Assembly (NCBI GenBank): GCA_026003255.1
Contig: BPGX01000004.1
Location: 62,001 to 126,000 of the forward strand
Reading direction: 5' to 3'
Length of the DNA: 64,000 nucleotides
Source of the DNA: Bacteroidia bacterium
Lineage (GTDB): Bacteria; Bacteroidota; Bacteroidia; B-17B0; Aurantibacillaceae
Program-made: the position numbers and the translations under genes
The notes under the pieces: generated by a model
Databases searched by the model: none
What the model was told of the DNA's origin: nothing
What the model saw: the letters and a program-made list of their open reading frames with translations, nothing else
Shown: one piece after another, positions 7,105 through 53,455 of the stretch
Layout of the letters: every line of letters starts with the position of its first letter
How positions within the stretch are numbered: position 1 is the first letter of the stretch

Positions 7105-7122
7105 CAGCAAAAATTATTTTGT

Positions 7123-10663: not shown

Positions 10664-10738
10664 ATTCTTGATTTCTAATGCATAATTTAAGTTGAAAAAT
10701 TTTTTGTGGATTTTTTGGAAAATTGACAAAAAATTGTA

Positions 10739-10746
10739 TAAATTTG
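10739..10746 (+). promoter_or_regulatory. Predicted -7 box of the second adhesin operon
   Basis: TAAATTTG (10739-10746) lies 12 bases before the ATG at 10759, with TTTG at 10714-10717 giving a 21-base spacer. It would drive the three closely spaced genes from 10759 to 21975. The leader would be very short. Confidence 0.5.
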
Positions 10747-10758
10747 CAAAAAAAAAAT

Positions 10759-14055: not shown

Positions 14056-15050
14056 TAATCAATTTGTTTTTATCGGTTGTTCCACAACCTACAGTAAGTA
14101 TCTCTATCCCCTCAAATACTGTTTGTTCTGGTCAAAACATTTACAATGAGTGCTTCTGGTGCTACTTCTTATTCATGGATTTCTAGTCAAGGTAATTATT
14201 ATAATAGTTCTACAGTAACCACATCTTTATCGGCTAACACATCTTATACTGTTACTGGGTTTTTCTGGCAATTGTTCCGATACTAAAACTGTTCAAATTT
14301 ATGTTTCCAGCGTACCAAATATTAATGTCCTTTTCAACATCATCGGTTATTTGTGATGTTGGTACTGTAACCTTGTCAGCCAGTGGAGCAAGTAATTACA
14401 CATGGACTGGGTCAGATGGATCTACATATAATAGTAATGTCCATAGTTGTAAGTCCAACAGTAAAACACAACCTACTCTGTACAAGGTAGTCAGGGTATA
14501 TGTACAAGTAATACTAAAACAATTAATATTGCCGTATCCCAAATAACATCTACTATACAAAACACAAGATGCAATTCAACCAATTTGTAATAATGGATCA
14601 GCAACAATAACAGTTAATGGCGGTATTGGAAACTACTCGTATACATGGACGCCGGGTAATTATCATTCCAATCAAGTGAACTTTTTGTATAATGGAACAT
14701 ACACTGTATCAGTAAAAGATCAGGCAGGATGTACTAAAAATTATACACTCAGTATAGGATGTGTTACAGGAATTGAAGAATACTTCTTGGGAAATACCAA
14801 AATATACCCTAATCCAACTTCACAATTTCTATATTTAGAAAGTGATATGGTAAAAAATTTGAATGAATTAAATATTACGATATTAAACTCATTAGGTCAA
14901 AAAATGTTACCAAGAAGTTATTACACTTTAAACAATAAAATCTTGATTGATGTTTCGGATATTGCAGATGGGGTTTATATCTTACTTTTAATGGATAAAG
15001 AAAATACAGTTTTGAAAAACATTAAATTCATTAAATCTATCCACAAATAA
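13968..15050 (+). pseudogene. Frameshifted C-terminal part of the 10759 gene, with T9SS type A sorting domain
   Basis: Reading all three frames together reconstructs a continuous protein: YTNVIVVSPTTNTTYSLSG, VPQPTVSISIPSNTVCSGQN, MSASGATSYSWISSQGNYY, FSTSSVICDVGTVTLSAS, SNTKTINIAVSQITS, ICNNGSATITVNGGIG, then YNGTYTVSVKDQAGC. It ends IEEYFLGNTKIYPNPTSQ...LNSLGQKM...DGVYILLL, a type A sorting domain. Each junction needs the removal of one base from a short run: TTT 13968-13970, TTTTT 14067-14071, TTT 14140-14142, TTTTT 14260-14264, CC/TTTT 14329-14334, CC 14441-14442, AAAA 14463-14466, AAAA 14559-14562. Eight +1 events take frame 1 to frame 3, exactly as observed. The uniform pattern points to consensus errors more than to decay. 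The last in-frame segment spans 14676-15050. Confidence 0.75.
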
Positions 15051-15087
15051 AAAAAATAAACTATGAAAAATAAATTAATTTTTAATT

Positions 15088-18762: not shown

Positions 18763-18783
18763 CTTACTCTCAAAAATAATCTT

Positions 18784-21700
18784 ATGATCAAAAAATACAT
18801 TCTTTTAGTGAATACATTATTGTGTATTGTTGTACTTAAATTGGAAGCACAAAATCAAGGCACTTACGTGAAAACGTTTAATTTTCCGGGTTATACCGGT
18901 GCTCATTCTTTGTATAAGACGCAAGATGATGGATATGTTTTAACTGGTGAAATGAGAGAAACATCCAGTGGCGATGCTAACATGTATTTGTATAAAGCAA
19001 GTGCTTGTGGAAATGTTGAATGGTTTAGAACTTTTGGTTCTTCCACAAACGATGGTGCTAACGAAGTCAAACAACATTCTACTAATGGCTATCTTATAAC
19101 GGGCTATTATGATGATAATAACGGAGGAGGGGATAAAAAAGATGTTTCTATTTTGAAAACCGATGTATTTGGTAACGTCATCTGGCATTCTACATTGAAT
19201 AACAGTGTTGCTAACGATGAAGATGAGGGAAATGATTTAATTGAACTGCCGGGAGGCAATGTAATTGTTGGCGGATACACCAGTAACTTTCCGTGGAGTG
19301 GTAGAAATGGTTTTTTCTCAATTATTTCAGGTGGTACTGGTGCAATGATTGCTACAAAAGTTATTGGAAATAATGGTAATGATGTAGTTGAATTTGTTAT
19401 TGGTGGTAGTTTAAATGATTTTTATATTGGAGGTTACACTAATTCTTTTGGTGCAGGTCAAAATGATATATTTCTTGCTAATGTAGATGCAAGTGGAAAT
19501 ATACTATGGATAAAAACTTATGGGACTTCAGCAAATGAAGGAGGACCAAAAGAAATAAAAGCTATCAGGGTCCCCACAGGGATATTAATTGTAAGTTATA
19601 CCGACAATACAACACTCACAGCTGGTGGAAAGGATATTCTTTTAATCAATGTTGACTTAAGTGGAAATGTATTGTGGGCAAGAGTGTATGGAGGTAATCA
19701 GGATGAAAGTGGAAAAAATATAATAATTTCTTCTCTTGGAGGATACCTCGTAACAGGATACACTAATACATTTACAAATGGAGATAGAGATGCTTTTGTA
19801 ATGAGATTGGACAATAGTGGAAATTACTTATGGTCAAAGAGTTATGGAAATATTGGGTGTGATTATGGAAATGATATCATCGACATGGGCATGGGCTACA
19901 TAATTTCTAACAACTATAATAATACCTTAAATACTTGTTCTTTTAATAATGAGTACGATCCTTTAATAATTAAAATTGATTCTATTGGTAATTCAGGATG
20001 TAATAATGTTTCTGCATTTTTTAGCTCAAATATTATAACTTCAAGCATCATATCTAATAACATTAATGTTAGTTCTAATTCACAGGATATCACAAGTAAC
20101 ATACAAACACAGTATCCGGTTCCGTATTCAACTAATCCAGTTATCAATGAACAATTTAATTGCTATTCCTGCTCAAATGTATCAGCAGCTTTTTCAACTT
20201 CTACCAATACACTTTGTACAGGAGATTATATTATACTTCAAAATACCTCTGGTGGAAGCGGAGGTACCTGTTTTCAGTGGATAATTAACAATTCGCAAAT
20301 AATAAATTACAAAGATACTCTTATTTTACAACCCAACCCTGGTTCCTATGTGGTCCAACTGAATGCTATTTGTGGTAATACCGTATCAAGTTATAATCAA
20401 ACAATAACAGTTTATCCTAAACCATACAGTCAATTTACTTTCACCAATAATACATGTTTTGAAAATCTGCCAACGAATTATCTCAATATAGGTTCGAGTG
20501 GAATTGGATATAGTTATACATGGTACCTTGGTTCAGGGGCTACTCCTTCAACTGTGAATACACCTAATGCCAATAACATTACATACGCTTATCCCGGCAT
20601 CAAAAATGTAGCTTTAGTTATTACTAACTCTTATGGTTGTAAAGATTCTGTAATGCATCTGGTATCAATAGAACCTTCTCCGAGTGTGGATTTTCTGGTC
20701 AGTAAAAACCCTGCTTGTATATCTGATACTATTTACTTTATCAATAATAGTTGGATAGGAAGCGGAAGTATATTAAATAATTTTTACTGGAATTTTGGAG
20801 ACGGAAATACTAGCACACAAAAAAATCCTTTTCATAAGTATTCCACCGCCGGCACCTTTACAGTAACCCTTGTGGCTACTTCTGATTATGGTTGCGATGA
20901 CACAGCTCAATATACTATCCAGATTGATAATTTATCCGTATCTGGGAACATAACTCCATCTTTTACAACGGTCTGTGAAGGATCTAATTTAGGTACCTTA
21001 ATTGTTAATGGCTTTAACAGCGAAATTCAATTCTGGCAAATGAGCGTAGATAGTGGAAAAACATGGTCTGTATTATCTAATACAGCATCTATTCAGGGCT
21101 ATTATAATTTAACCAATACTACACTATTTTCTGCATGGGTTTATAATGGAACATGTCCGCCGGTGGCTACCCCTATTGCAACGGTTCAAGTAGACAAAAA
21201 ATCAGATGCCGGTATATTATTGAAAGACACAGTGGTTTGTTATGGTGTAAATTCTGGCACTCTTACTCTTACGAATTATTTCTCTACAATTCAAAATTGG
21301 ATAATGTATGATGCTACCAATGGTTATCAAATCATTCCAAATACGAACTCAAGTTATACCTTTAATAATTTAACAGATACTACTCAATTTGCAGCAGTGG
21401 TTCAAAACGGTGTTTGCCCATCTGATACATCTAATTATGTTACTGTTTATGTTCAACAATTCAATGGTGCTATTGCTTTTCCACTCGATACTTCCATCAG
21501 CCTGGGATATTCAGTCCAAATAACTGCCACCGGTGGTTCAAATTACGCCTGGACCCCCAACTATAATATTTCAGACACAACTGCTTTCAATCCAATAGTT
21601 TGGCCATATAAAGACACTACTTATTTTGTAATAGTGACAAATCAATATGGTTGTGTTGATACGGCATCAGTAAGAATATTTGTTGAAAAGGATTACAAAC

Positions 21701-21975
21701 TCATCATTGCCAATACTATGACACCTAATGGCGATAACTACAACGACTTCTTCTGGATTGGAATGATTGAACATTATCCAAATAATGAAGTAATGGTATT
21801 CAACCGCTACGGACAAATGATTTACAAAGCCAATAAATACGATAACCAAAAAGTATACTGGGATGGTACTTATCAGGGTAATAAGGTTCCCGATGGGGCT
21901 TATTATTACGTTATCAAGTTTACCGATAGTAATGTAATTTTCAAAGGAAGTATTAATGTGATTAGTAGTCATTAA
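18784..21975 (+). CDS. Secreted beta-propeller/PKD protein with gliding-type T9SS C-terminal domain
   Basis: This 1063-residue protein starts at an ATG 21 bases after the previous stop. Signal peptide MIKKYILLVNTLLCIVVLKLEAQ. Residues about 25-380 form about seven repeats of the type DGYVLTGE...ANMYLYK...GNVEWFRTFG, seen again as GGYLVTGYTNTF...DAFVMRLDNSGNYLWSKSYG, which fits a beta-propeller. Then come a Cys-containing linker, PKD domains (YLGSGATPS, WNFGDGN), two TVCEGSN/VVCYGVN modules and the gliding CTD. The last 89 residues match the 7123 gene with one substitution (KASKYD to KANKYD) although about two dozen codons differ silently. T9SS substrate, probably surface-attached; binding partner unknown. 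Confidence 0.88.
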   Translation: MIKKYILLVNTLLCIVVLKLEAQNQGTYVKTFNFPGYTGAHSLYKTQDDGYVLTGEMRETSSGDANMYLYKASACGNVEWFRTFGSSTNDGANEVKQHSTNGYLITGYYDDNNGGGDKKDVSILKTDVFGNVIWHSTLNNSVANDEDEGNDLIELPGGNVIVGGYTSNFPWSGRNGFFSIISGGTGAMIATKVIGNNGNDVVEFVIGGSLNDFYIGGYTNSFGAGQNDIFLANVDASGNILWIKTYGTSANEGGPKEIKAIRVPTGILIVSYTDNTTLTAGGKDILLINVDLSGNVLWARVYGGNQDESGKNIIISSLGGYLVTGYTNTFTNGDRDAFVMRLDNSGNYLWSKSYGNIGCDYGNDIIDMGMGYIISNNYNNTLNTCSFNNEYDPLIIKIDSIGNSGCNNVSAFFSSNIITSSIISNNINVSSNSQDITSNIQTQYPVPYSTNPVINEQFNCYSCSNVSAAFSTSTNTLCTGDYIILQNTSGGSGGTCFQWIINNSQIINYKDTLILQPNPGSYVVQLNAICGNTVSSYNQTITVYPKPYSQFTFTNNTCFENLPTNYLNIGSSGIGYSYTWYLGSGATPSTVNTPNANNITYAYPGIKNVALVITNSYGCKDSVMHLVSIEPSPSVDFLVSKNPACISDTIYFINNSWIGSGSILNNFYWNFGDGNTSTQKNPFHKYSTAGTFTVTLVATSDYGCDDTAQYTIQIDNLSVSGNITPSFTTVCEGSNLGTLIVNGFNSEIQFWQMSVDSGKTWSVLSNTASIQGYYNLTNTTLFSAWVYNGTCPPVATPIATVQVDKKSDAGILLKDTVVCYGVNSGTLTLTNYFSTIQNWIMYDATNGYQIIPNTNSSYTFNNLTDTTQFAAVVQNGVCPSDTSNYVTVYVQQFNGAIAFPLDTSISLGYSVQITATGGSNYAWTPNYNISDTTAFNPIVWPYKDTTYFVIVTNQYGCVDTASVRIFVEKDYKLIIANTMTPNGDNYNDFFWIGMIEHYPNNEVMVFNRYGQMIYKANKYDNQKVYWDGTYQGNKVPDGAYYYVIKFTDSNVIFKGSINVISSH

Positions 21976-22173
21976 CTTTTCATTTCTTAATTAATTGTCT
22001 TTAAAATTCTATCATTGACGAAAATGCTTTTGTAGTTTTTTAAATTTTCATATAGTCATTTTATATACCCATATTTATTTTCTTACTCATATTACTCTTT
22101 AAAAATGTCATTTTATTGAGCGAACGAGCTATTTGATTTATTGAACGATTATAATTAAGAAAAGTTTAATATT

Positions 22174-22181
22174 TAGATTTG
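22174..22181 (+). promoter_or_regulatory. Predicted -7 box of the SprB-repeat gene
   Basis: TAGATTTG (22174-22181) matches TAnnTTTG and lies 18 bases before the ATG at 22200. The 224-base gap after the previous adhesin gene suggests separate transcription. No clear terminator is visible in that gap, which is otherwise unremarkable AT-rich sequence. Confidence 0.5.
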
Positions 22182-22199
22182 CATCAACAAAAATAAAAT

Positions 22200-25100
22200 A
22201 TGAGAAAAGTATCCCCGTTTGTTTGTCTTTATCTTTTCATTCTCATTCTGTTTTTCTCAAACATTATGCTCGCCCAAACAACTTGTTCTAATGCAGCTCC
22301 TTTTTGCACATCAACCGGAGTTAATTTTCCTGCTGGTGTGAATAATGGCTCCGCTCCTTCAGGACCTGATTATGGTTGTTTATTAACTCAACCCAACCCT
22401 GCTTGGTACTACTTAAATATTGCTACCTCTGGTCCTATTGATATTACATTGACAAATAGTGCTAATGTTGACATTGACTTTATCTTATGGGGGCCTTACT
22501 CCTCTCAAGCCGCAATGTGTCCTAATATTATGACCTCTAGCGGAAGCGGCCCATATATTGTAGATTGTAGCTATTCTACCGCAGCAACAGAATACGTTAA
22601 TATACCCAATGCTATTGCAGGACAGTGGTATATGTTATTGATCACTAATTATTCCAACCAACCTACTAATATTACTGCTACTCAAACAGGTGGCACTGGA
22701 GCAACAAACTGTGCAATTTTATGTAATATTACAGGAATGACTGCTTCTCCAAGTGCTTGTAATCCTTCTAATAACACTTATTCGGTATCAGGAGTAATCA
22801 CAGTTACAGCACCCCCAAGCACAGGTAATCTCACTATCACAAATAGTTGCGGTGGAACTCCAATTACATTAAACCCACCATTTTCTACATCCATTTCTTA
22901 TAGTTTTACTGGTTTAAATTCAAATGGTGCATCTTGTGTTGTAACAGCAGGATTCTCTGCCGACCCCACATGTACTTTTGCAGTTAATTATACTGCTCCT
23001 GCCTCTTGTTCTGTTTCTTGCTCCATGACCGCCTCCGCGTTTCAAACATCAAGTATATCTTGTTATAATGGTTCAAATGGTAGTGCCAGCGTTTCTGTAT
23101 CTTCAGGTACCTCGCCTTTCTCCTATACATGGTCACCAACAGGAGGTAATAGTGCCTCCGCAACAGGTCTAATAGCCGGCAATTATACCGTTACCGTTAA
23201 AGATGCTAACAACTGTTCTGCCAACGCAACTGTCCAAATCACTCAACCTTCTCTCTACACTCTTGCCATGACCACTCAATCCGCCAGCTGTTCAACACCC
23301 GGTTCTGCTACCGTATCTGTAAGCGGTGCTGTAGCCCCTTATTCCTACACATGGTCGCCTAGCGGCGGAAACTCCAACATCGCCACAGGGCTCTCTCCAG
23401 GTTCTTACACCGTAACCATCAAAGATGCAAACAACTGCTATACTACTGCCGTTGCCAATATCACAGGGGCTCCTGCCGTTAGCATTAGTGGTGTGAATAT
23501 TAACTCGGTCGCTTGTAACGGACTTTCCAACGGCTCTGCCACCATCAACCTCTCCGGCGGTGCTACACCCTACTCCTATACATGGACACCTTCCGTTAGT
23601 ACTTCCTCCGTTGCCACAGGATTATCCGGAGGAACTTATTCCGTTCAGGTCAAAGACAATAACAACTGTATCACCAATACCGTCATAACCATTTCTCAAC
23701 CACCTGCTCTTTCTCTCACCGCTACTCAAACCCAAAGCGTAAGTTGTAACGGCGGTAACAATGGTGCTGCTAATGCTTCCCCCAGCGGCGGTGTGGGTGG
23801 ATATACTTATACATGGTCACCTACCGGCGGAAATAGTTCAACTGCTTCCGGTCTTACAACAGGAATCTACACCATCACCGTCAGTGACGCTAACAATTGT
23901 ACTATCTCATCCACCGTCCAGATACTTGAACCGCCTGCCTTATCCCTCACCGCTACTCAAACGCAAAGTGTAAGTTGTAACGGCGGTAACAATGGTGCTG
24001 CTAATGCAACCGCCAGCGGCGGTGTCGGTGGTTACTCCTACACATGGGCACCATCAGGTGGAAATAATGCCAACACATCATCTCTGACCGCCGGCATTTA
24101 TACCATAAATGTATCCGATGCTAATAACTGCGGACCTATTAGCACTACCATCCAAATTATTCAACCGCCCGCATTAAGTATAACAATCACAGGTACCAAT
24201 GTTACCTGTAATGGATACAATGACGGTATTGCTACCGCCTCTGTATCAGGCGGCGTGGGCGGATACACCTATACCTGGTCCCCAACAGGAGGTAATAACA
24301 CTACCGCTTCCAATCTCTTTGCAGGAAATTATACCATACAAGTCAATGACGCCAACGGATGTCCTATTTCTGCCAACATTAACATCACACAACCTTCTGC
24401 TATCAACCTCGCCGTTACACCTAACCCAACCATCTGTTTCGGCAACAGCACCAATATCTCCGCTAATGCCAATGGCGGAACGCCGCCTTACTCCTATTCA
24501 TGGAACCCTAACATCACCTCTACTGGCGGACCAATTACTGTAAACCCAACAGTAACTACTAATTATTATGTCAATGTCAATGATGCTAACGGTTGTACAG
24601 GACCGTCTTCTGTTATCACGGTCTTCGTTAGACCTCCTCTATCAGCTACCGGCTTCACCGCCAATCTCTGCGATGGACAAAGCATCACGCTCTATCCAAC
24701 TATTACCAGTCCAGGTAATAACGGACCATACAATTACATCTGGAGCAATGGCGCCTCCTCGCCCTCTATCACCGTTAATGCTAACATCGCTCTCGGTTCT
24801 TCTAATACTTACTCGGTCATCATAGACGATGGTTGTACAAACCCTTCTGCCATCGCTGAATTTACCATCTTCATCTATCCTAACCCCGTCATCTCTTTCA
24901 GCGCTGACATCACAAAAGGTTGTGTGCCGGTGAATGTCAACTTTACAGCCAATACCAATAGTGTTAGTGTAAGTTCTTATACATGGGATTTTGGAAATGG
25001 ATTGACTGCTACAGGCAATCCTGTTGCTACCAGCTACACTGCTCCCGGCGTTTATTCTCCCACCTTAACTGCTGAAAGTCAATACGGATGTATTACACAA

Positions 25101-25694
25101 ACAGTACTAACTAACTACATTCAAACTTATGGCTATCCAACTGCCGATTTTGAAGCTGATAGCTGGACCGTAACGCCATACGACCCCCTCGTTAATTTTA
25201 TCAATCTATCTTCCGGTGCCGTCAGCTATCAATGGAACTTCGGCGACCCTATGAGCGGATTACTCAATACCAGTACTCAAACCAACCCAAGTCATGAATA
25301 TTTGTACTCCGGAACCTACACGGTAGCACTAATAGCAAAAAATGAATATGGCTGTGCTGACTATATCACTAAAGTAATCTATGTCGATAAAGTATTTAGC
25401 TTATACATCCCGGATGCTTTTACTCCCGATGGTAACGGACTAAACGATGTCTTCCAACCCAAAGGCATCGGTATTGATGAAAGTGATTACAAAATGCTTA
25501 TATTTGACAGATGGGGTGAACTCGTTTTTGAAAGTAATAACTTCCAAAAAGGTTGGGACGGAAGTGTGAAAGGAAGTACAGGTAAAGCCACACAAGATGT
25601 CTATGTGTATAAAATTTATGTGAAAGACCTAAAAGGAAATAGACATGAATTTGTGGGACATGTAACCTGTTTACCTTATACAGGAGAGAAATAA
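22200..25694 (+). CDS. SprB-repeat surface protein with gliding-type T9SS C-terminal domain
   Basis: This 1164-residue protein has a signal peptide (MRKVSPFVCLYLFILILFF ... IMLAQ), an N-terminal Cys-containing sandwich (CSNAAPFCTSTGVNFPAG, DIDFILWGPYSSQ), and six SprB repeats of 75-78 residues (residues about 275-735) with SCNGGNNGAANA, YTYTWSPTGGN and YTITVSDANNC. A PKD-like unit, two PKD domains (WDFGNG, WNFGDP) and a CTD follow (IPDAFTPDGNGLNDVFQP, IFDRWGELVFES, GWDGSVKG). SprB is the mobile gliding adhesin of Flavobacterium johnsoniae, but this protein is far shorter than SprB and the repeat alone does not prove gliding. The repeat region is visibly richer in G+C and C-ending codons than its neighbours. 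It is convergent with thiF, 16 bases between. Confidence 0.88.
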   Translation: MRKVSPFVCLYLFILILFFSNIMLAQTTCSNAAPFCTSTGVNFPAGVNNGSAPSGPDYGCLLTQPNPAWYYLNIATSGPIDITLTNSANVDIDFILWGPYSSQAAMCPNIMTSSGSGPYIVDCSYSTAATEYVNIPNAIAGQWYMLLITNYSNQPTNITATQTGGTGATNCAILCNITGMTASPSACNPSNNTYSVSGVITVTAPPSTGNLTITNSCGGTPITLNPPFSTSISYSFTGLNSNGASCVVTAGFSADPTCTFAVNYTAPASCSVSCSMTASAFQTSSISCYNGSNGSASVSVSSGTSPFSYTWSPTGGNSASATGLIAGNYTVTVKDANNCSANATVQITQPSLYTLAMTTQSASCSTPGSATVSVSGAVAPYSYTWSPSGGNSNIATGLSPGSYTVTIKDANNCYTTAVANITGAPAVSISGVNINSVACNGLSNGSATINLSGGATPYSYTWTPSVSTSSVATGLSGGTYSVQVKDNNNCITNTVITISQPPALSLTATQTQSVSCNGGNNGAANASPSGGVGGYTYTWSPTGGNSSTASGLTTGIYTITVSDANNCTISSTVQILEPPALSLTATQTQSVSCNGGNNGAANATASGGVGGYSYTWAPSGGNNANTSSLTAGIYTINVSDANNCGPISTTIQIIQPPALSITITGTNVTCNGYNDGIATASVSGGVGGYTYTWSPTGGNNTTASNLFAGNYTIQVNDANGCPISANINITQPSAINLAVTPNPTICFGNSTNISANANGGTPPYSYSWNPNITSTGGPITVNPTVTTNYYVNVNDANGCTGPSSVITVFVRPPLSATGFTANLCDGQSITLYPTITSPGNNGPYNYIWSNGASSPSITVNANIALGSSNTYSVIIDDGCTNPSAIAEFTIFIYPNPVISFSADITKGCVPVNVNFTANTNSVSVSSYTWDFGNGLTATGNPVATSYTAPGVYSPTLTAESQYGCITQTVLTNYIQTYGYPTADFEADSWTVTPYDPLVNFINLSSGAVSYQWNFGDPMSGLLNTSTQTNPSHEYLYSGTYTVALIAKNEYGCADYITKVIYVDKVFSLYIPDAFTPDGNGLNDVFQPKGIGIDESDYKMLIFDRWGELVFESNNFQKGWDGSVKGSTGKATQDVYVYKIYVKDLKGNRHEFVGHVTCLPYTGEK
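23706..24170 (+). repeat. Near-identical tandem SprB units within the adhesin gene
   Basis: Units 4 (23706-23936, 77 codons) and 5 (23937-24170, 78 codons) both begin ALSLTATQTQSVSCNGGN and share long stretches at DNA level (for example GTAAGTTGTAACGGCGGTAA in both), unlike the other four units. This points to a fairly recent duplication or to conversion between units. Confidence 0.8.
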
Positions 25695-43221: not shown

Positions 43222-43620
43222 TTATAGAATTACATTTTGACGAATAGATGCAGCAATCGTCTCAAATTCTTCTTTAGACAATTGCAATTTAGGATTCGCA
43301 AAATTGCAATCACTCATGGAATTTATGGGAATTAAATGAACATGTGCATGAGGCACTTCAAGTCCTATTACTTGCATTGAGAGTCGATTACAGGGTATTG
43401 TTTTTTTAATGGCAATGGCTACTTTTTTTGAAAAATCCATTAACCCTAAATAGGTTTCATCGTCCAAATCAAAAATATAATCCACTTCTTTTTTGGGTAT
43501 TACCAATGTATGTCCTTTTGTTAATGGGAAAATATCTAAAAAAGCTAGAAAATGTTCATTTTCCGCTACTTTGTAAGAGGGTATTTCACCATTTACTATT
43601 TTAGAAAAAATGCTTGCCAT
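43222..43620 (-). CDS. HIT family nucleotide-binding hydrolase
   Basis: The 132-residue protein is a Hint-type histidine triad protein. The start MASIFSKIVNGEIPSYKVAE (43620) is the usual N-terminus. TKGHTLVIPK and the triad HAHVHLIP (residues about 97-104) are visible. HIT proteins hydrolyse adenosine phosphoramidates or AMP-amino acid conjugates. Two bases separate its start from the greA stop and 12 bases its stop from prfC, so it is the middle gene of a translation/transcription maintenance operon. Confidence 0.93.
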   Translation of the reverse strand: MASIFSKIVNGEIPSYKVAENEHFLAFLDIFPLTKGHTLVIPKKEVDYIFDLDDETYLGLMDFSKKVAIAIKKTIPCNRLSMQVIGLEVPHAHVHLIPINSMSDCNFANPKLQLSKEEFETIAASIRQNVIL

Positions 43621-43621
43621 A

Positions 43622-44095
43622 TTAGATACTAATTTCAAGAATTTCTAATTTTAATAGACCGGCTGGCACTTTTACTTCCACAATTTCCCCAACAGTTCTT
43701 CCAATCAAACATTTACCAATAGGAGAAGCTATGGACAATTTCCCTTGCGAAATATTTGCTTCATTTTCAGCTACTAAATAATACTCCACTATAGTTTTGG
43801 TAGTATGATTCTTCAGTTTCACTTTTGTAAACATAGAAACTTTTTCAGTATTTAGCTGACTTTGATCAATAACTCTGGCATTTTGAAGAATTTGTTCTAA
43901 TTCACCAATTCTTGCTTCAAGGTGTGCTTGTGCTTCTAATGCTGCATCATATTCAGCATTTTCGCTCAAATCACCTTTTTCTCTTGCTTCGGCAATTTGT
44001 TGAGCTACTTTTTTTCTTTCTTCAGTTTTTAAGCGATGTAATTCATCCTTTAATTTTTGTAATCCCTCCTCAGTATAAAACACAAAATTATTCAT
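43622..44095 (-). CDS. greA: Transcription elongation factor GreA
   Basis: GreA rescues backtracked RNA polymerase by stimulating transcript cleavage. The 157-residue length is standard. The N-terminal coiled coil (EEGLQKLKDELHRLKTEERKKV in parts) carries the acidic tip GDLSENAEYDAA, and the C-terminal FKBP-like domain has ISIASPIG-type sequence (LSIASPIGKCLIGRTVGE) and a final LEILEI strand. The start at 44095 (MNNFVFYTEEG) is chosen over a longer frame that would run through the hairpin upstream. Its leader contains a strong hairpin with U-rich tract starting at the predicted transcription start, which may limit greA expression. Confidence 0.96.
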   Translation of the reverse strand: MNNFVFYTEEGLQKLKDELHRLKTEERKKVAQQIAEAREKGDLSENAEYDAALEAQAHLEARIGELEQILQNARVIDQSQLNTEKVSMFTKVKLKNHTTKTIVEYYLVAENEANISQGKLSIASPIGKCLIGRTVGEIVEVKVPAGLLKLEILEISI

Positions 44096-44118
44096 ACATT
44101 TTATATTTTTAATAAAAA

Positions 44119-44148
44119 GCAAAATCCCGAATGGATTCGGGATTTTGC
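44119..44148 (-). terminator. Intrinsic terminator / greA leader hairpin
   Basis: GCAAAATCCCGAAT (44119-44132) and ATTCGGGATTTTGC (44135-44148) form a perfect 14-pair stem with a minimal loop. On the minus strand it is followed by TTTTTATTAAAAATATAAAA. It ends the PorV-like gene transcript, whose stop is 29 bases upstream, and it also begins at the predicted start of greA transcription. Confidence 0.85.
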
Positions 44149-44152
44149 ACTG

Positions 44153-44184
44153 CAAATATAATAAATTTATTACTAAATTACAAA
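44153..44184 (-). promoter_or_regulatory. Predicted greA promoter, embedded at the end of the PorV-like gene
   Basis: On the minus strand TTTG (44184-44181) and TATATTTG (44160-44153) are separated by 20 bases, a good -33/-7 pair. The start of transcription would fall near 44146-44149, exactly at the base of the terminator hairpin. The -33 box overlaps the last codons of the PorV-like gene. Confidence 0.55.
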
Positions 44185-45254
44185 TTTACTCTAACTCCAA
44201 AAGTATGTACGCCTCCAAAAGGATTGGTTAATCTATAAGAATAATCTAAACCAACTGTACTATTTTTTTCCTTGTTAAAAGGCCATTCTATTGTAAGACC
44301 AGCAGTAGGCCCCGTTAATGCTGTCATTCTCTTGGCACTATCAAAAATATATTTTTCTCCTTGAAAGCCCACTCTCAACATTACCCGCTCTTTCCATGCA
44401 TACTCTACTCCAAACAAATAATTATCATAAGTAAATGAGTTAGACAAATAATTTGCTGCCACAGTAAGCCGATGTTCTCTGATACCATTGATAATCGTAT
44501 CTCCAGTTAAATTAAAATCATAAGAAGCGCCAATATTCATAGCCAAAGGTATTTCAAAAAATGCAGAACGATTTTGAACAGTTCTTTGATATTCAGGTGA
44601 TACCTGAGTAAGTGTTTGAAAGGTTAACGCTTCACCTTTATATTGCATTTTTGGTCCCCAGTTTTTAATAGATACCCCAAAGTGTGTTTGTTTATATTTA
44701 CCAGTATGATATTGGATTCCGCCATCAATAGCAATGCCTGTAGCTTGTGCACCAGGAATTCGTTCATTGATTATTTTTATATTTACACCTCCATAAATAT
44801 CATCGGAAAACATTCTTGAATATGACAAACTTAAGTTTAAAAAATTAGGTGAAAAGGTACCCATACCACCTTCTGGTTGATCTTCTGTGGTACGAACTAA
44901 ATTTCCACCATTTATATTTACAAGGCCAAATCCCAGTGCACCAACCTGACCCACCCTTTGCGTAAAGCCAAGTGTATTAATGTTAATGCCCGTTCCTATT
45001 AACCAATCCGCTCTTGAAAAATAAATTTCAGTTTTTTTTGTAAAAACCGTACCAGCTGCGTTCCAGAAAATTGCTTCAATTCCTCTGGTATTAGCTTGAT
45101 TAGCTCCCGCCCAGCCAGATGATCTGGCAAAAGGATTTATAAGCAATTGCGATGCACCTGCTTGTCCTGCACGTTCAGGGTTACCTGCACTTAAATCACC
45201 ACAAGTAACCAATACAGAGAATCCAATAATGAATGAATATCTCATTTTTATCAT
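44178..45254 (-). CDS. PorV/PorQ-family outer-membrane barrel protein
   Basis: PorV and PorQ are FadL-like barrels of the type IX secretion system; PorV carries substrates from the translocon to the attachment complex. This 358-residue protein has a signal peptide (MRYSFIIGFSVLVTCGDLSAG), AGASQLLINPFARSSGWAGANQANTRGIEAIFWNAAG (in parts), and many amphipathic strands ending in VHTFGVRVNL with a terminal aromatic-poor strand. The start may be 45254 (MIKMRYS) or 45245. It is the third gene after a TonB-receptor-like gene and a giant T9SS-type protein, so it could be a dedicated paralogue for that protein. It is not evidently the housekeeping PorV. Confidence 0.82.
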   Translation of the reverse strand: MIKMRYSFIIGFSVLVTCGDLSAGNPERAGQAGASQLLINPFARSSGWAGANQANTRGIEAIFWNAAGTVFTKKTEIYFSRADWLIGTGININTLGFTQRVGQVGALGFGLVNINGGNLVRTTEDQPEGGMGTFSPNFLNLSLSYSRMFSDDIYGGVNIKIINERIPGAQATGIAIDGGIQYHTGKYKQTHFGVSIKNWGPKMQYKGEALTFQTLTQVSPEYQRTVQNRSAFFEIPLAMNIGASYDFNLTGDTIINGIREHRLTVAANYLSNSFTYDNYLFGVEYAWKERVMLRVGFQGEKYIFDSAKRMTALTGPTAGLTIEWPFNKEKNSTVGLDYSYRLTNPFGGVHTFGVRVNL

Positions 45255-45273
45255 ATTTTGAAATTTAAGAAGG

Positions 45274-48200
45274 TTAGAAGTTTTGTAAATCATAAGGTCT
45301 CATAATTCCAAACCATTTGATGATTTTCTCACCAAATTTTGGAGATTCAATATGAATAATATACATTCCACTTGACACCAATATACCATTTTGATTTTTT
45401 AGATCCCATTCAATGTATGGCAACCATTTTGCTTGTTTAAAGTCATTAGTGTAGGTAAATTGGTCCTCCATGTTTTCCATATTTCTGTTAAGTGTACGAA
45501 TAAGTGTACCATTCAAGGTGTAAATTTTTACAATACAATCGCTTGGCAAATTCGTAATTTTCACTTTTGTTTCAAGACGATTGCCTTCATAAGTTGAATA
45601 ACCATAATATGGATTTGGTACAACACGAATAATATCTAACGCATTTTTAGCAATATCGTCCTTGTTTGTAATAGTATAGATATCACTTGTAGAGAATTGA
45701 TACATTGGGAAATTATTATTTTGCGGATTAGAAGAAACATTTATTACAGAACCTACATTTTGCGGCAATAAAGATGCGAATGGAGAGAATCGCCAGGAAA
45801 CTAAGTCAGCATAATAGGGTGAAGATCCTGGTGTTGTATTCGTATAGAATGTAGAATAACCGTATCTGTATGGTTTTCTCACGCGAATTCTAATTTTTAC
45901 TTCTGTAGGAATCTGTGATGGATTTTTGAACGCATACTTACTACTTGTCAAAACAGGAATATTCACCCACATAAAATCATGTAATAAAGTTTTAAATAAT
46001 CTTATTACCTGATTTCTATTAGTACCAGTTACATTTGTAAATGCTGCTTTCCATTGAGGATAGAGTTGTTTGCAACCATCATATCTGCCTGCTCCAATAG
46101 GCGTACCATCCAATGCTGCAATTGCTGGTACAGAAGAAGTGTTGGTTTTATATACTTCGTATCTATTGTTTCCGATAATGTATATATAATGTCTTCCACC
46201 AAATGGATATTGATAGGCAGAACCAGTTCTGTTTGCAGTTGGATTCCAGATCAAATCATTTCCATTATCGTTTGTATTCCAGCTATCTTCTCCAAATACA
46301 ATGTTTAATCTTTCTCCAGTTTCTACATTTATGGCATAGCCCGGGAACCAACTCATACCTTCCGCTGCTATATAATCTGCGTCGTTTGGATCATTGGTAA
46401 CAACACCATCTCCCGGATTTCCATTTTTATCAACAGATGGATGTTTTCTAATCTCAAATTTTAATGCTCCGCCTTCTGCTAAATTGGGGTCATCCTGCAT
46501 TTCAATCACCATACATCTTGTCCATTTACTTTTATCAGGCGTAATTACCAGGTCAATACTAGATAAATATCCTGGTTCCACTTTGGATGGATTGGCGTCT
46601 CCAATAGTATTAAAACGTATTCTTGAATCGTAACCTGGTCCAGCATAAATCTCACAACCATTGTTTATATTAAATTTACCTGAAAAAGCAGTAATACAAT
46701 ATGGTGCCCAGGTACCTCCAAGAATATTAGCCATTATATTATCTTTATCCGTCCAGTTTGTAGAACCGGCATAACCATAAATCGGTCCACCACATTCGGC
46801 AGGTTCTGTAGATGTCCCAACTCCACTTCTTATCCAATTAAATGGCGAAGGATTAGGAGAAGTAATTCCATCACCTATTCCAGTAAGCCATGATTTATGT
46901 GGCTCAGCAAAGGTCATAGTAGCTTCTAAAAAGTCCCCTTCTTTGTACACATCTCTATCAACTGTATAAGTCGTTGTACCTTTTAATTGAGTTCCGGGGT
47001 CAAGCACTTGTTCCATAGTAATAGATAAACCAATTTCCGGAATTACATATTCTTTACCCATCTTTATAGTAGTATCTAATTGATATGTATTTCCACTATT
47101 GTTATCAATTAGCACCCAGGTTGCTCTGTCCGGATTGACAGCACCCATATTTAAGACATCTCCATCAGTAGGAGTTAATGGTACAGCTGGATTTCCTAAT
47201 CCATTCCATTTCATTAACTTAAGAGTATATGTAGTATTTTTTACTTTTAGTGGATCAATTACTTTAACATTAACAGGACCTCTACCATTAACATAAGTTG
47301 GATTAGGATCAAAGTTATTAGCAAGTATCCTATTCACACTCTCATCAGTAAGATCTAAAATATTACCTCCGTTACCTTGTCCTTCAATACGAGTGATTTT
47401 TGGGCCGTATCCATAGTAGGATTGCATAACCGTACCATCTTTTTCAGGGGAGTTGATATGTGGAATGCCAGAAGCTTTTTTTACTTTTCTACCTTCTAAG
47501 TAGGGTCTTTTTTGACCTAAATAGTTAGCATCAGGGCTACTAATTGGATCAGTATCAGGTTTATATGTTAAGTAATTATTGTACGCATAAGCTACAGCCA
47601 TAAAATAATACTTCTTGTGATTCACCAATCGATTATTAGCAGTACCTCCAGATGTTGATACAGCAAATGCATCAGTAGTTATTCTAAATGATTTTACAAT
47701 TCCTTTGTCTGCTCCATCTACTTTTACTTTTGGAACTAATTGGCCAGATTCGTTATCTGTTTCATAGTTAATTAATCTTGTTACGCCATCTTTAATATCG
47801 CATTGGAAAATCAATCTGGCTTTACTTTGATCTTCTAAATCCGTTTGAGTAACAGTTTCATCTCTTAATTGATAAACTTTATACCCTTGAAATCTATACT
47901 TTCTATCAGGATTTGCTAGAGCTGCAATAGTGCTTCCTGGAACGGGTAAAATTGTAACATCGGTTTCTTCATATCTTTCGGCATAATTGTTGGATGTAGG
48001 CGGATTAGTTAAATAGATAATCAACTCTTGGTCTAATTCTTGAATTGTTAATTCAGGTGCATCTGGACCATTTAAAATTTTAAAGCAGTTATCAAATAAA
48101 GCTTGTGCTTTATCATCTGCAGCTTTCATCAATGGAATAGAGTATAATTGCTGGTTTTTAATAGGAGTTTGAGCCCATGGTAAACCGAAAGTAATATTAT

Positions 48201-49647
48201 TTACAGCCCCGGGTTTAAGTGTAAATGGGCCAGCTGTTTGTAAGAATCTCCTATCACCAGCAGTATTACCGGCAGAATATTCTGTCCATCCTGTTCCAGC
48301 ATAAGGGTCCCCAGAATAAACAAGAACTCTTCCTTCAGGATTAGTTGTATTTAATGGAGTAGCCCCCCCATAAGCAGTACCTCCAAAAGTAAACGGTGAA
48401 CCATCTTTCCATTTACCAATCATGTATCCGTAGTAATGTGCAGCAATTTCAGGATTTGTAGTTTGAGGAGGGAAAGAACCAATATTGTTATTATAATAAG
48501 TAAAATTCGTCATTCCTATTGTTTCACAGGGTTCATCAATTACACCATTAAAATTATTATCAATGCCATCGTTTGGGTCAGCCAATGGACCTCTAAAAAA
48601 GTCAGCTCCAATAGCAGGAGGATAATCTTCGTATCCGGGTGCACCAGAAACACTCTCATCTTTACTATCTGCATTATATATGTAACCTAATCCCCTTGCA
48701 ACATCACACCCTACATAATCATCATTATAATTCCCTAAATCAGCATCTGTCCAAACTGTAAAATAAGTATTCTTTAATTCAAAAGTTGAACGGTTAATAA
48801 CCTGGTAACTATAAAAGGTCATATTATTAATCTCATCCGATGTTTGAAAAGCAAAAGCTTGAGCACGAATCTCCAATCCAATAGGTAACCCTTGGGTTTC
48901 AGTGTGTGCATTTCCCATATCATTAAAAACCCACCATAAACAATAATCGCCAAAAAGTCGCGCTTTACAATTGCCACAATTATCCTTCTCAGCTTTGTTA
49001 TATATATCAAAAGCAGGATAATCTCCTTTAGAAGGATCATAGAACCCATCCCCATCTACATCCTCAAATGGTGCTAAATATTGATCTTGATTGTAAGTAG
49101 GGTCTCCATTACCAGGCCAGATTTGAGCATTATAGGGTATAGGATTCCCAGGGTTTAAAACATAACTTTCTACTTCTGCCCTACTAATTGAGAAGATTTT
49201 ATCGTATTTTTGACATACTTCATCTGTTACTGATGCATTTGTAATATCTAAAGGACCTGGCCAATAATCATAACCACTTTGACGATATGTCATTGCGGCT
49301 ACTCTTAATTGCCCACCTGCATCATAACCACCAATCCAAATAGAACCAGCAAAAAGAGAGGAAGGTGCTTTGCTTCTGTCTTTCTGAGCAGGTACAATAT
49401 AGTAAGCACTAGAACTTCCAAATAAATCCCACCACATGTCACCAGCTGTAAATATGATTGCTCTAACATTATTCACCCATAATTCTTTCGAACCATTTGC
49501 ACCAACACATTGCGCTGAAACTTTAAAGGTATTAGAATTTGAAGAAGCATTTCTGAAACCACTGGCTTTATTTATTTCTCTTCCTTGTACATAGAAGAAA
49601 AAAGTAGCTAATGAAAAACTGAGTAAAATTTTGGTATTTGTTCTCAT
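45274..49647 (-). CDS. Giant secreted protein with T9SS-type C-terminal domain
   Basis: The 1457-residue protein has a signal peptide (MRTNTKILLSFSLATFFFYVQG), then a large region rich in aromatic and Asp/Asn residues with Ca-binding-like loops (EDVDGDGFYDPSKGDYPAFD and DPNDGIDNNFNGVIDEP, similar to MopE/thrombospondin-3 motifs). Fibronectin-like segments in the middle (FQGYKVYQLRDE, YYFMAVAYAYNN) and a C-terminal domain follow: IRVVPNPYYGYSTYEGNRLE, IVKIYTLNGTLIRTLNRN, GMYIIHIESPKFGEKIIKWFG, which fits a type A-like T9SS sorting signal. No enzyme domain is evident. It lies 37 bases after the TonB-receptor-like gene and 19 before the PorV-like gene. Confidence 0.85.
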   Translation of the reverse strand: MRTNTKILLSFSLATFFFYVQGREINKASGFRNASSNSNTFKVSAQCVGANGSKELWVNNVRAIIFTAGDMWWDLFGSSSAYYIVPAQKDRSKAPSSLFAGSIWIGGYDAGGQLRVAAMTYRQSGYDYWPGPLDITNASVTDEVCQKYDKIFSISRAEVESYVLNPGNPIPYNAQIWPGNGDPTYNQDQYLAPFEDVDGDGFYDPSKGDYPAFDIYNKAEKDNCGNCKARLFGDYCLWWVFNDMGNAHTETQGLPIGLEIRAQAFAFQTSDEINNMTFYSYQVINRSTFELKNTYFTVWTDADLGNYNDDYVGCDVARGLGYIYNADSKDESVSGAPGYEDYPPAIGADFFRGPLADPNDGIDNNFNGVIDEPCETIGMTNFTYYNNNIGSFPPQTTNPEIAAHYYGYMIGKWKDGSPFTFGGTAYGGATPLNTTNPEGRVLVYSGDPYAGTGWTEYSAGNTAGDRRFLQTAGPFTLKPGAVNNITFGLPWAQTPIKNQQLYSIPLMKAADDKAQALFDNCFKILNGPDAPELTIQELDQELIIYLTNPPTSNNYAERYEETDVTILPVPGSTIAALANPDRKYRFQGYKVYQLRDETVTQTDLEDQSKARLIFQCDIKDGVTRLINYETDNESGQLVPKVKVDGADKGIVKSFRITTDAFAVSTSGGTANNRLVNHKKYYFMAVAYAYNNYLTYKPDTDPISSPDANYLGQKRPYLEGRKVKKASGIPHINSPEKDGTVMQSYYGYGPKITRIEGQGNGGNILDLTDESVNRILANNFDPNPTYVNGRGPVNVKVIDPLKVKNTTYTLKLMKWNGLGNPAVPLTPTDGDVLNMGAVNPDRATWVLIDNNSGNTYQLDTTIKMGKEYVIPEIGLSITMEQVLDPGTQLKGTTTYTVDRDVYKEGDFLEATMTFAEPHKSWLTGIGDGITSPNPSPFNWIRSGVGTSTEPAECGGPIYGYAGSTNWTDKDNIMANILGGTWAPYCITAFSGKFNINNGCEIYAGPGYDSRIRFNTIGDANPSKVEPGYLSSIDLVITPDKSKWTRCMVIEMQDDPNLAEGGALKFEIRKHPSVDKNGNPGDGVVTNDPNDADYIAAEGMSWFPGYAINVETGERLNIVFGEDSWNTNDNGNDLIWNPTANRTGSAYQYPFGGRHYIYIIGNNRYEVYKTNTSSVPAIAALDGTPIGAGRYDGCKQLYPQWKAAFTNVTGTNRNQVIRLFKTLLHDFMWVNIPVLTSSKYAFKNPSQIPTEVKIRIRVRKPYRYGYSTFYTNTTPGSSPYYADLVSWRFSPFASLLPQNVGSVINVSSNPQNNNFPMYQFSTSDIYTITNKDDIAKNALDIIRVVPNPYYGYSTYEGNRLETKVKITNLPSDCIVKIYTLNGTLIRTLNRNMENMEDQFTYTNDFKQAKWLPYIEWDLKNQNGILVSSGMYIIHIESPKFGEKIIKWFGIMRPYDLQNF

Positions 49648-49684
49648 ATTATTTAGTTTTAATTAAATATTTATGATTATTTTA

Positions 49685-52600
49685 TTAAAAATCAAGTTGA
49701 ATTCCTAATCTTATTTGTCTTGGTTGTGCATAGTTTGAAAATCGGTTAATAAAGATAGAATACTGATCTACAAAAGCAGTTGGGCTATTAGTTAATTGAA
49801 TAGTAGATTGCGCAAGAGGAGAAGAAAGGAAACCGTCGTCGTCTGGCAATCCAGTAAAGTTGTATACATTAAGTACATTTTTTTGATTAAGTACATTCAG
49901 AACTTGTAAATAAACATTTAAATTTGCTTTTCTTTTGTTTTCAGAATCTTTTGAACCAAAAGTCAATTCAAAGTTTTTATCTATTCTTAGGTTACCACGA
50001 ATAGTCCATGGTTTATAAGAACTATTTATACCTCCAACAATGCTTGCTCTTTGACTTCCATTTGCTGCCACAGGAAATGCCCATCTTGTATAAGGAGTTC
50101 CTGAACCAATAAAGAATTGGATATTAAATCCTAAATCTTTGAATATTTGAACAGTTTTCTCTTCAGATTTTTTCCAAACAGGTCCTTTGTAATCTGAACC
50201 TGATCCAAAGCGATAGTCATAAGTTAATACAATAGTGTGTCTTTGATCATAATCCAGAGGTTGAAGTATTCTCAAATTTGGCTGGCCAGACAATGCTAAA
50301 TTAGCGCCAGAATTAGCATTAGACCCCGTACCCTCAGCAAATTGTAAAGTATAATTAGCTTTAAAGCTTGAGCCACCTGTTCTCCTTAAGTCAAATTCTA
50401 ATGTAAGCCCTTTTACAGTTCCAAAATCCTGATTTACATAAGTCACATAATTTCTTGGAAAAGCTCCTACGATATTTTTAACAGTTAACATATCTCTTAA
50501 CTCTCTGTAAAACAATTCTATTTTCAAAACAGAATTTTTTCTTTCATTTAGTATTTGTGCAAATCCAAGAGAGTAATCAATTGTTTTTTCAGGTTTTAAG
50601 CTTGGGTTTGTCAAGAATGGCAATGAACTTTCGTTAGGCAAGAAGTAGTAGTCCATAGGACTAAATCTATTTCCGCCGTCAAAAGAGGTACTTCCTGGTC
50701 TTTTTGTAAGAATATCATAATGTGCGAAGAAATTCGCCATATCTGAAATTGGGAAAGAAAAAGCAATTCGTGGCATTATATTCACCTGGGCCTTATAATT
50801 TGTAAATGCTTCTGGAGAAAAAGGTTGGCCAGATTGATATTCTTGAGGATTTTTCAAGTAAGGTGTTAATTTCCCTGTTACACCTGCAAGTGCATTTGGG
50901 TCAGAAACTTCGTTACCCTGAGCATCGTACCAGATATCTCCATTTCTATAACCAATTACACTTCCTCCATTAATATCGGTTGTATATACCACATAATTAT
51001 CACCCATATTAGCGGGGTGATTGAATTCATTCTTTGTATCTGCTACAGTTTTTGCCGGATGAACTAAATAAGGATCTTTTAAAGTTTTTTGATTAGCATC
51101 ATAACGGTCAACTCTGATACCTACGTTAAATTTCAAATCTCTGTAATCAAATCTATCTTGAATATAACCTGCCATGTAAATTGGTCTAAAAGCACCTACG
51201 AGGAAAGTTTTTTTACCATACTCATCTGTTTTAGTCAAGAAATCTGATAAATTAGTAGATCCATTATATTTTTTTCCTGTATGGTCATATCCAAAATAAT
51301 CTACTAAAGCATTACCACTACTATTCCCTAAAAGGTCTTCAGCACTAAACATATCCATTGAGAATACAGAAGGATCTAATGCATCTATGTTAATTTGTTC
51401 CTTTGAGTTAGTTGGCTTACCAAGTGCTTGTAATAATTTTATAGAAAATTCAGTTTGTTGTGCGGAGTTGTATAAATTTTCATAATAATATGCAGGGTAT
51501 GTATAAGATAAATCAGGATTGTAAATTGGATTCGACTTATCTAATTGAGATATGTGCTGGTTTACAATTTGACGCATTCTTGTCCACAAGCCAGCGGGGC
51601 CAATACTCCATCCTCTTTGTTCTCTTTGGTCAAATTCAAATCCTGCTGTAATGGCATGCGTAGTATGGTTGATATTTAGGTCTGTGTTAATAGATGCTGC
51701 TACTCTAAATTGTCTATAATTGACTTTAGAATACCCATTATAAATAACTCCAGGGAATGTCCACATACCATACACCGTTCCACCACCGGCAAATGCTCCA
51801 CCGCTATTATCACCATTGCGCATTCCACCAAAAGCAGGTAAAAAGTCAATAGAAGGTAATGTAAAAGGAGAATTATTAATCACATATTGAGTAAACGCTA
51901 CTGCCTCTGGATTTTGATTACCAGGAGTAAAATCAAAACCTATTGGGCTTTGTCCCTGGTATTCATAAGCTTTAATGGTATCGTTTCCGACAATTAATTT
52001 TGGATTAAATACATAATTATTAATATTTTCTTTTCCAGAATATTTCTGATCAAATTTTCCAATGTAACCATAATCAAATAATTTATCTTTAAATTTTGCA
52101 TCCTGCGTTACGCTGTTAACACCCTCATAACTTGCAAGAATATTGAAGAAAGTATTAGTAAGCAATTGATTAGATTTTTCCTTTTCATCCTGAGAGCTAA
52201 TATGTTTTCCGAATTTTTGTGTCACTCTTAAAGAAACTCTCCACGTATTTGAAATGGTTTGAGAATTGGATTCAGGAGTAAATAATGAACGAGAGAACGA
52301 AAAATTTCTACCATTATTCAACTCATAAGCGCCGCCTACTGAGATATTTGTATTATCTGTTGGTTTGATGTCAATTTTACCATTAAGAGCTAAATAATAA
52401 GATGCCACATTAACGTGTGATTTTCTTGTTTCTAATTGATCCTTTGTAACATAATCATATCTTTTTACAAAACCAATACCACTGGGGGATGGTTGAAGTG
52501 GATTAGCAATTAAGTCATTTTTCACATCTTCTTTAAGAACATATACAGGCAAGAAAGAAGGCAATGGGTCTTTCACATAATTACCCTGACCTGCTAAGAA

Positions 52601-53455
52601 GTACCCCACAATTGTTTTTTTGTTTCCATTAGTATCTATTTTATTCCAGATAGGACCACCAATACTAAAACCTAATGAATTAAAACCATAAGGGTCTAAT
52701 CCCAACACTTTTCCTTTTTTATTTTCACCTAATCCAGAAGAATAGAATTCAATGCCGCCGAAAAATTTAGATTGAGGACCTCTTGTTGAAACAGAAATAA
52801 CTCCAGAAGTAACATCTCCATACATAGCAGGTACACCACCCGTAATCACATTAATTTGTTCCACCGCTTGTTGTGGAAGCGCTAAACCACCGATTACTTT
52901 AACACCATCCACAAAATAAGTATTTTGCGTATTTCTACCTCCTCTAACATTTAAAGACCTTCCTTCATCTGCCTGGAATATACCAGCATTACTTGCTGCT
53001 GCTGTATTAATATCTTTTGTAGCCATGTTTTGATATTCCTCTCTCGTAACTGTACCTCCTGATTTTGTATCAGGGTCTACAAGTGGCACCTGATATGTTT
53101 CAACTGTAACTTCGTCTAATTTTATACCTTCACCGGCATCCATAAGAATAGTTACATAAGCAGTTTTACCCTCACCTACTAAAATCCCTTTCATTTCTTT
53201 AGGTTGGTAACCAACATAAACAGCTTTCACATCATAAGTTCCAGGGGGAAGTGGCTTTAAGAAGCATTCACCATCCATATCGGTAGTAGTTCCTGCAACT
53301 TGAACACCTTTCATGTAGGCAACTACACTAGCGAATGGTAATGTTTCCCCTGTTTTTTTATCTTTCAAAGTTACTTTAATGGCTCCTGTATTATTTTGAG
53401 CACTGATTCCTAAAAAAGCCAAAACAAACAATGTTGAAATTAAACTTCTTATCAT
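49685..53455 (-). CDS. TonB-dependent receptor-like outer-membrane protein with CarboxypepD_reg domain
   Basis: The 1256-residue protein has a signal peptide (MIRSLISTLFVLAFLGISAQ), a CarboxypepD_reg-like domain (GAIKVTLKDKKTGETLPFASVVAYMKG, residues about 22-105 in parts), a plug (residues about 130-240) with SLNVRGGRNTQNTYFVDGVKVIGG and INVITGGVPAMYGDVTSGVISVSTRG segments, and a long barrel ending PRQIRLGIQLDF with the terminal Phe. It imports or binds large substrates or helps surface assembly. It heads the three-gene cassette with the giant T9SS protein and the PorV-like barrel. No SusD-like lipoprotein is adjacent, so it is not a standard Sus pair. Confidence 0.9.
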   Translation of the reverse strand: MIRSLISTLFVLAFLGISAQNNTGAIKVTLKDKKTGETLPFASVVAYMKGVQVAGTTTDMDGECFLKPLPPGTYDVKAVYVGYQPKEMKGILVGEGKTAYVTILMDAGEGIKLDEVTVETYQVPLVDPDTKSGGTVTREEYQNMATKDINTAAASNAGIFQADEGRSLNVRGGRNTQNTYFVDGVKVIGGLALPQQAVEQINVITGGVPAMYGDVTSGVISVSTRGPQSKFFGGIEFYSSGLGENKKGKVLGLDPYGFNSLGFSIGGPIWNKIDTNGNKKTIVGYFLAGQGNYVKDPLPSFLPVYVLKEDVKNDLIANPLQPSPSGIGFVKRYDYVTKDQLETRKSHVNVASYYLALNGKIDIKPTDNTNISVGGAYELNNGRNFSFSRSLFTPESNSQTISNTWRVSLRVTQKFGKHISSQDEKEKSNQLLTNTFFNILASYEGVNSVTQDAKFKDKLFDYGYIGKFDQKYSGKENINNYVFNPKLIVGNDTIKAYEYQGQSPIGFDFTPGNQNPEAVAFTQYVINNSPFTLPSIDFLPAFGGMRNGDNSGGAFAGGGTVYGMWTFPGVIYNGYSKVNYRQFRVAASINTDLNINHTTHAITAGFEFDQREQRGWSIGPAGLWTRMRQIVNQHISQLDKSNPIYNPDLSYTYPAYYYENLYNSAQQTEFSIKLLQALGKPTNSKEQINIDALDPSVFSMDMFSAEDLLGNSSGNALVDYFGYDHTGKKYNGSTNLSDFLTKTDEYGKKTFLVGAFRPIYMAGYIQDRFDYRDLKFNVGIRVDRYDANQKTLKDPYLVHPAKTVADTKNEFNHPANMGDNYVVYTTDINGGSVIGYRNGDIWYDAQGNEVSDPNALAGVTGKLTPYLKNPQEYQSGQPFSPEAFTNYKAQVNIMPRIAFSFPISDMANFFAHYDILTKRPGSTSFDGGNRFSPMDYYFLPNESSLPFLTNPSLKPEKTIDYSLGFAQILNERKNSVLKIELFYRELRDMLTVKNIVGAFPRNYVTYVNQDFGTVKGLTLEFDLRRTGGSSFKANYTLQFAEGTGSNANSGANLALSGQPNLRILQPLDYDQRHTIVLTYDYRFGSGSDYKGPVWKKSEEKTVQIFKDLGFNIQFFIGSGTPYTRWAFPVAANGSQRASIVGGINSSYKPWTIRGNLRIDKNFELTFGSKDSENKRKANLNVYLQVLNVLNQKNVLNVYNFTGLPDDDGFLSSPLAQSTIQLTNSPTAFVDQYSIFINRFSNYAQPRQIRLGIQLDF

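Follow-up and report, generated by a model that had tools for sequence, protein, structure and literature searches.

A conserved cassette joins a TonB-dependent receptor, a giant protein with a PorZ-like CTD, and a PorV-family barrel across much of Bacteroidota

PorU and PorZ are T9SS surface proteins that retain their CTDs and are held by PorV and PorQ, respectively (PMC10202324, PMC7463736), and a shielding of the CTD from cleavage by such cognate barrels has already been proposed (PMC10202324). Both proteins possess an additional beta-ribbon and additional C-terminal residues (PMC11285876). For substrates with a type B CTD, which work with PorP/SprF proteins, a dedicated shuttle gene is located immediately downstream of the substrate gene (PMC12618676). 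Here, we analyzed a window of 64,000 nucleotides from a Bacteroidia bacterium of the family Aurantibacillaceae (assembly GCA_026003255.1, contig BPGX01000004.1, positions 62,001 to 126,000), in which a PorV-family barrel, a giant protein with a type A-like CTD, and a TonB-dependent receptor are encoded together as a cassette. No description of this combination was found in the open-access papers searched, and many families of the class lack the cassette, which may explain why. It is an uncharacterised variant of the known cognate-shuttle and anchor principle that occurs across much of Bacteroidota. The cassette and its kept neighbours, in window coordinates, are as follows.

49685..53455, minus strand: TonB-dependent receptor, 1256 aa, with signal peptide, CarboxypepD_reg domain, plug, and beta-barrel with terminal F
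45274..49647, minus strand: giant T9SS substrate, 1457 aa, with signal peptide, conserved N-terminal module, middle region, and PorZ-like CTD
49036..49062, minus strand: EF-hand-like loop DVDGDGFYD of the giant, residues 196-204
48532..48570, minus strand: acidic Ca-loop-like motif DGIDNNFNGVIDE of the giant, residues 360-372
45274..45633, minus strand: giant CTD (approximately residues 1339-1457), a 7-strand Ig sandwich followed by the conserved tail MRPxDxQN[FY], short helix last
44178..45254, minus strand: PorV-family outer-membrane barrel, 358 aa from ATG 45254 or 371 aa from ATG 45293
44119..44148, minus strand: conserved hairpin followed by a T-run in the barrel-greA gap, cassette terminator and/or greA 5' leader
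43622..44095, minus strand: greA (Pfam GreA), kept downstream neighbour outside the cassette
43222..43638, minus strand: HIT-domain gene (Pfam HIT), kept downstream neighbour outside the cassette

Compared with the PorZ-PorQ and PorU-PorV pairs of the attachment complex of the T9SS in Porphyromonas gingivalis, the cassette likewise offers a surface protein with an Ig-like CTD, inferred to be uncleaved and to have a PorV-family anchor, and the fold of that CTD is nearest to PorZ. It differs in that no domain of PorZ or PorU is apparent in the N-terminal part of the giant, the tail extension of the CTD is longer, the barrel forms a clade of its own, and a TonB-dependent receptor is joined to the unit. 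The type B arrangement with PorP/SprF (e.g., SprB-SprF of F. johnsoniae) shares the shuttle barrel directly downstream of the substrate, whereas the CTD of the cassette is type A-like, resembling PorZ, the barrel is a PorV-family member, and a receptor gene lies upstream. As in SusCD-type TonB uptake, a receptor with CarboxypepD_reg and plug domains is encoded with a large surface partner; unlike there, no SusD-type lipoprotein gene is adjacent, the partner is of the T9SS type, the unit additionally includes a PorV-family barrel, and the receptor plug is closest to siderophore and colicin receptors in the PDB. The fourth comparison lies in the same genome, where a PorV2 gene (NCBIfam PorVQ2) gives a second PorV-family barrel beside its own large CTD protein, with the differences that this partner is PorU-like and that the pair includes no receptor. 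The PorV2 gene (454 bits) overlaps the gene for this 1696-aa PorU-like CTD protein (contig C4, L034:2896-9109).

The three genes of the cassette are open throughout on the minus strand and transcribed in the order receptor, giant, and barrel, in agreement with the single direction given in the original prediction, as are its gaps of 37 nt between receptor and giant and 19 nt between giant and barrel, the latter with the barrel starting at ATG 45254; the alternative ATG at 45293, further upstream, would make the barrel gene overlap that of the giant. The lack of a SusD partner was also borne out, as the flanking genes are a patatin-like gene upstream and greA-HIT downstream. The strong terminator claimed at 44119-44148 was recovered as a 13-bp hairpin followed by a T-run, the best terminator-like site from the barrel to greA, and hairpin plus T-run were present in 29 of 67 relatives in a strict scan. 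A Bacteroidota-type promoter-like TAnnTTTG was located just before the hairpin (window 44095-44178) in 44 of 67 relatives, against 8 expected; given this position directly before a conserved hairpin, the "terminator" may double as a greA 5' leader. No Rfam family matched the hairpin above threshold, a sigma-70 promoter scan was uninformative (50 found versus 49.9 expected), and the region upstream of the receptor showed no Bacteroidota -33/-7 pair. Elsewhere in the window, and outside the cassette finding, very large repeat proteins of about 1060-1220 aa form an array at 7072-25694, several of them with near-identical gliding-type (type B-like) C-termini (e.g., ...NTMTPNGDNYNDFFW...), and a large T9SS-type protein at 10723-15050 is apparently frame-broken into a 1110-aa ORF and then a short ORF with a type A-like CTD (14676-15050).

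The receptor matched CarboxypepD_reg (1.3e-12) and Plug (2e-7) in Pfam, which agrees with its earlier description as a CarboxypepD_reg/TonB-type receptor, and it combines the plug and beta-barrel that characterize TonB-dependent receptors. Of 32 orthologues, all had Plug, 31 had CarboxypepD_reg, and 11 matched the TonB barrel model, and a receptor profile matched the plug domains of the receptors for colicin I and enterobactin in the PDB (7e-12). It is the family of the receptor that points to a putative transport role for the cassette.

The giant is single copy in its own genome and had no match in Pfam, and searching the PDB directly with the sequences of the window proteins likewise gave no match. 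Its designation as a 1457-residue T9SS substrate is backed by a structure model, the sequence matches of its CTD being weak (PorZ model, E 1.2e-5; TIGR04183, 14 bits versus a cut-off of 23, with one distant homologue [L157] barely above that cut-off at 23.1 bits). In an AlphaFold2 model that covers residues 780-1457 (mean pLDDT 80, loops low-confidence), the C-terminus was predicted to form a seven-strand Ig sandwich followed by a short terminal helix, and the best PDB match of the CTD fold in Foldseek was PorZ (5m11, E 5.7e-5), with PorU, FlgD-type Ig domains, and translocon-bound substrate CTDs among the lower matches. PorZ is therefore the top match by sequence as well as by fold, and the modelled domain is of the seven-strand Ig-like kind, related to known CTDs, by which T9SS CTD proteins are recognised, suggesting that the translocon would recognise it. 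The giants of the trios run 8-10 conserved residues past the canonical CTD end, with KWFGVMRPLDLQNY in Bacteroidia and KFAVVKKRIQLNTF-like sequences in others, while those of divergent paralogue cassettes have the canonical end ...KFAVIK. Both predicted Ca-loop-like motifs were located (DVDGDGFYD, residues 196-204; DGIDNNFNGVIDE, residues 360-372), and D196 as well as D360, D363, N364, D371, and E372 are invariant among 23 orthologues of the giant. These acidic loops hint at stabilisation of the N-terminal part by calcium. The N-terminal part has a predicted structure with a mean pLDDT of 86.5, and its only fold matches were glycoside hydrolases and phosphorylases that bear a beta-supersandwich, at a TM of about 0.24. 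Such matches are compatible with a carbohydrate-related function, yet they are too weak for use.

The barrel of the window belongs to the PorV/PorQ family (NF033709, 146 bits versus a cut-off of 90), and its profile matched PorV of F. johnsoniae (6h3i, 4.9e-13), consistent with its description as PorV-like. It fell far from the equivalog cut-offs of housekeeping PorV (NF033710, 61.7 bits versus 250), PorQ (NF033711, 64.8 bits versus 220), and PorV2 (NF052325, 44.4 bits versus 325), and did not match the PorP/SprF model TIGR03519 at E<=1. The tree placement proposed earlier was carried out by maximum likelihood with 124 PorV-family proteins; in this tree, the trio barrels formed one clade of 54 rows (SH-aLRT 97; 100 for the trios of Bacteroidia), separate from PorV (SH-aLRT 100) and PorQ (99), so that the window barrel lies outside both. 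The most divergent barrels of distant trios (L162 and L164) clustered with the paralogue cassettes outside the trio clade, and two rows with very long branches (L212_PorV and L250_PorQ) are probably ORF-extraction errors that leave the trio clade untouched. Three PorV-family genes occur in the genome, namely PorV (469 bits, cut-off 250), PorV2 (454 bits, cut-off 325), and the window barrel, which thus is not the housekeeping PorV of the genome; PorQ was not found in this 90%-complete assembly. The genes for SprA and PorU are present, indicating that a T9SS is encoded. The SprA translocon gene (contig C5:172709-179854) is broken across several frames and contains internal stops, probably through assembly frameshifts.

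To describe the distribution of the cassette, GTDB genomes were scanned, and 80 named loci were kept from more than 500 relatives. Within the order, 83 of 87 genomes encode the giant, including all 62 that are at least 90% complete, and both partners adjoined it at 27 of 29 loci of order-level relatives, the other two being cut by contig ends. The order receptor, giant, and barrel was retained in 69/69 named-genome loci with all three genes, the gaps having medians of 20 and 22 nt, and greA and HIT were located downstream of 73 and 68 named loci, respectively, so that the locus looks vertically inherited. A phylum-wide sample revealed a homologue of the giant in 190 of 388 good genomes. Within the class Bacteroidia, only three of the sampled families (f6-f8) had it; many other families encode a shorter homologue of about 1050-1270 aa with the N-module and CTD in common. 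Family f19 had zero PorV-family genes and was also absent among the genomes with a match to the giant. Of 40 distant loci, 34 held the full trio, three more (L167, L174, and L183) lacked one outer gene only through a contig end, and the remaining three, one of which (L180) has two giants in tandem, were without partners. Taken together (order receptor, giant, and barrel retained in 69/69, 27/29, and 34/40 loci), the synteny of the trio is far beyond chance, as anticipated. The cassette is single copy beside greA-HIT in Bacteroidia and often multicopy elsewhere, with PorV-family genes reaching 16 or more per genome outside Bacteroidia. At divergent PorV-family paralogue loci outside Bacteroidia, taken as the higher-scoring non-PorV match of each genome and hence no random draw, a receptor was upstream in 18/18 and the full trio was present in 15/18. 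Three such loci (L215, L218, and L227) had receptor and PorV-family genes close together or adjacent with no detectable giant and with CTD-like proteins in the vicinity. The older core of the cassette may be the link between receptor and barrel.

The N-module of the giant also occurs in the order on standalone proteins of about 560-920 aa. Eight of these were examined, and all showed ordinary type A-like CTD ends and no adjacent PorV, which indicates that the dedicated barrel tracks the variant CTD rather than the N-module. Two standalone loci had a receptor fragment about 4 kb away on the opposite strand, and one locus (L258:4158-12494) encodes three tandem N-module proteins of about 910-920 aa that end in ordinary type A CTDs and lack an adjacent PorV.

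Considering these results, we favor, with a probability of about 0.6, the reading that the cassette encodes a three-part outer-membrane surface complex in which its own PorV paralogue collects the uncleaved giant and anchors it beside the receptor. The giant, which has a signal peptide, would use its CTD for export by the T9SS; the cassette paralogue, not housekeeping PorV, would take it from the translocon and remain on the uncleaved CTD as a membrane anchor, in the manner of PorQ on PorZ and PorV on PorU. The anchored giant would then act together with the receptor encoded upstream; its most plausible role is that of a lid or capture protein, exposed at the surface, for a substance that the receptor imports. 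The earlier suggestion that the PorV paralogue is dedicated to its neighbour is thus strongly supported as genetics, by gene order and by the separate clade, and is a probable reading at the biochemical level; specific binding of barrel to CTD, absent cleavage of the CTD, contact with the receptor, and a role in import are what we infer from these data. The barrel may also serve other CTD proteins, since three paralogue loci pair receptor and barrel without a detectable giant.

Alternatively, the giant could be an ordinary type A cargo, shuttled by PorV, cleaved by PorU, and attached to LPS or released, while the barrel has another job such as FadL-like import or receptor assembly. PorV and PorU are in the genome, the fold of the CTD is type A-like, and one distant homologue narrowly passes the TIGR04183 cut-off, all as this explanation expects; we nevertheless consider it unlikely, because the nearest relative of the CTD by both sequence and fold is the uncleaved PorZ, the conserved tail is additional to the CTD, and a PorV-family gene almost always adjoins the giant but not the type A proteins with its N-module.

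The cassette could also be accessory machinery of the T9SS or envelope, a second attachment or sorting complex like PorQ-U-Z, instead of a nutrient or capture system. Its presence beside greA-HIT in 62/62 good genomes of the order is what core machinery would show, and the PorZ-like CTD of the giant and the parallel pair of PorV2 and PorU-like protein in the same genome fit as well. This seems quite improbable given that many PorV-bearing families of the class lack the cassette and that other classes have many copies per genome, more like substrate-specific systems. Moreover, no linkage of PorZ or PorU to receptors is known. Subunits of BAM (the FadL-like barrel BamG, BamP, and BamM) were considered as identities and set aside, with only weak BamG matches in some relatives; BamP and BamM of F. 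johnsoniae are confined to Flavobacteriaceae/Flavobacterium (PMC12611786), and for BamG, a FadL homologue, a PorV-like way of working is thought unlikely (PMC12578637).

With greA as control, the protein distances of receptor, giant, and barrel still co-vary (partial r 0.63-0.82), as interaction would allow but shared linkage or inheritance would also. The tightest pair is receptor and giant (partial r 0.82), as would be expected if the receptor served the export or assembly of the giant and not import, in the way that PopC secretion in Myxococcus xanthus needs the TonB-dependent transporter Oar (PMC6434023); we regard this as very improbable, because the T9SS genes and the T9SS-type CTD make a second export route unneeded and receptor-barrel pairs occur without a detectable giant.

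Under the favored reading of an anchored three-part complex, a wider proposal is possible, albeit doubtful, namely that a SusCD-like principle of uptake was built from other parts, with a T9SS-delivered lid or capture protein on a TonB-dependent transporter and a dedicated PorV-family barrel replacing the lipid anchor, and that it was ancestral to Bacteroidota, gave rise to many substrate-specific copies outside Bacteroidia, and was lost in many families of Bacteroidia. How substrates of the T9SS are matched to their shuttles is an open question, for which the cassette offers a large natural data set with one PorV-family barrel per neighbouring CTD protein, a visible candidate specificity element in the tail extension of the CTD, and a built-in control in the N-modules on ordinary CTDs without a dedicated barrel. 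It also connects T9SS-mediated display at the cell surface with TonB transport in a large part of the phylum.
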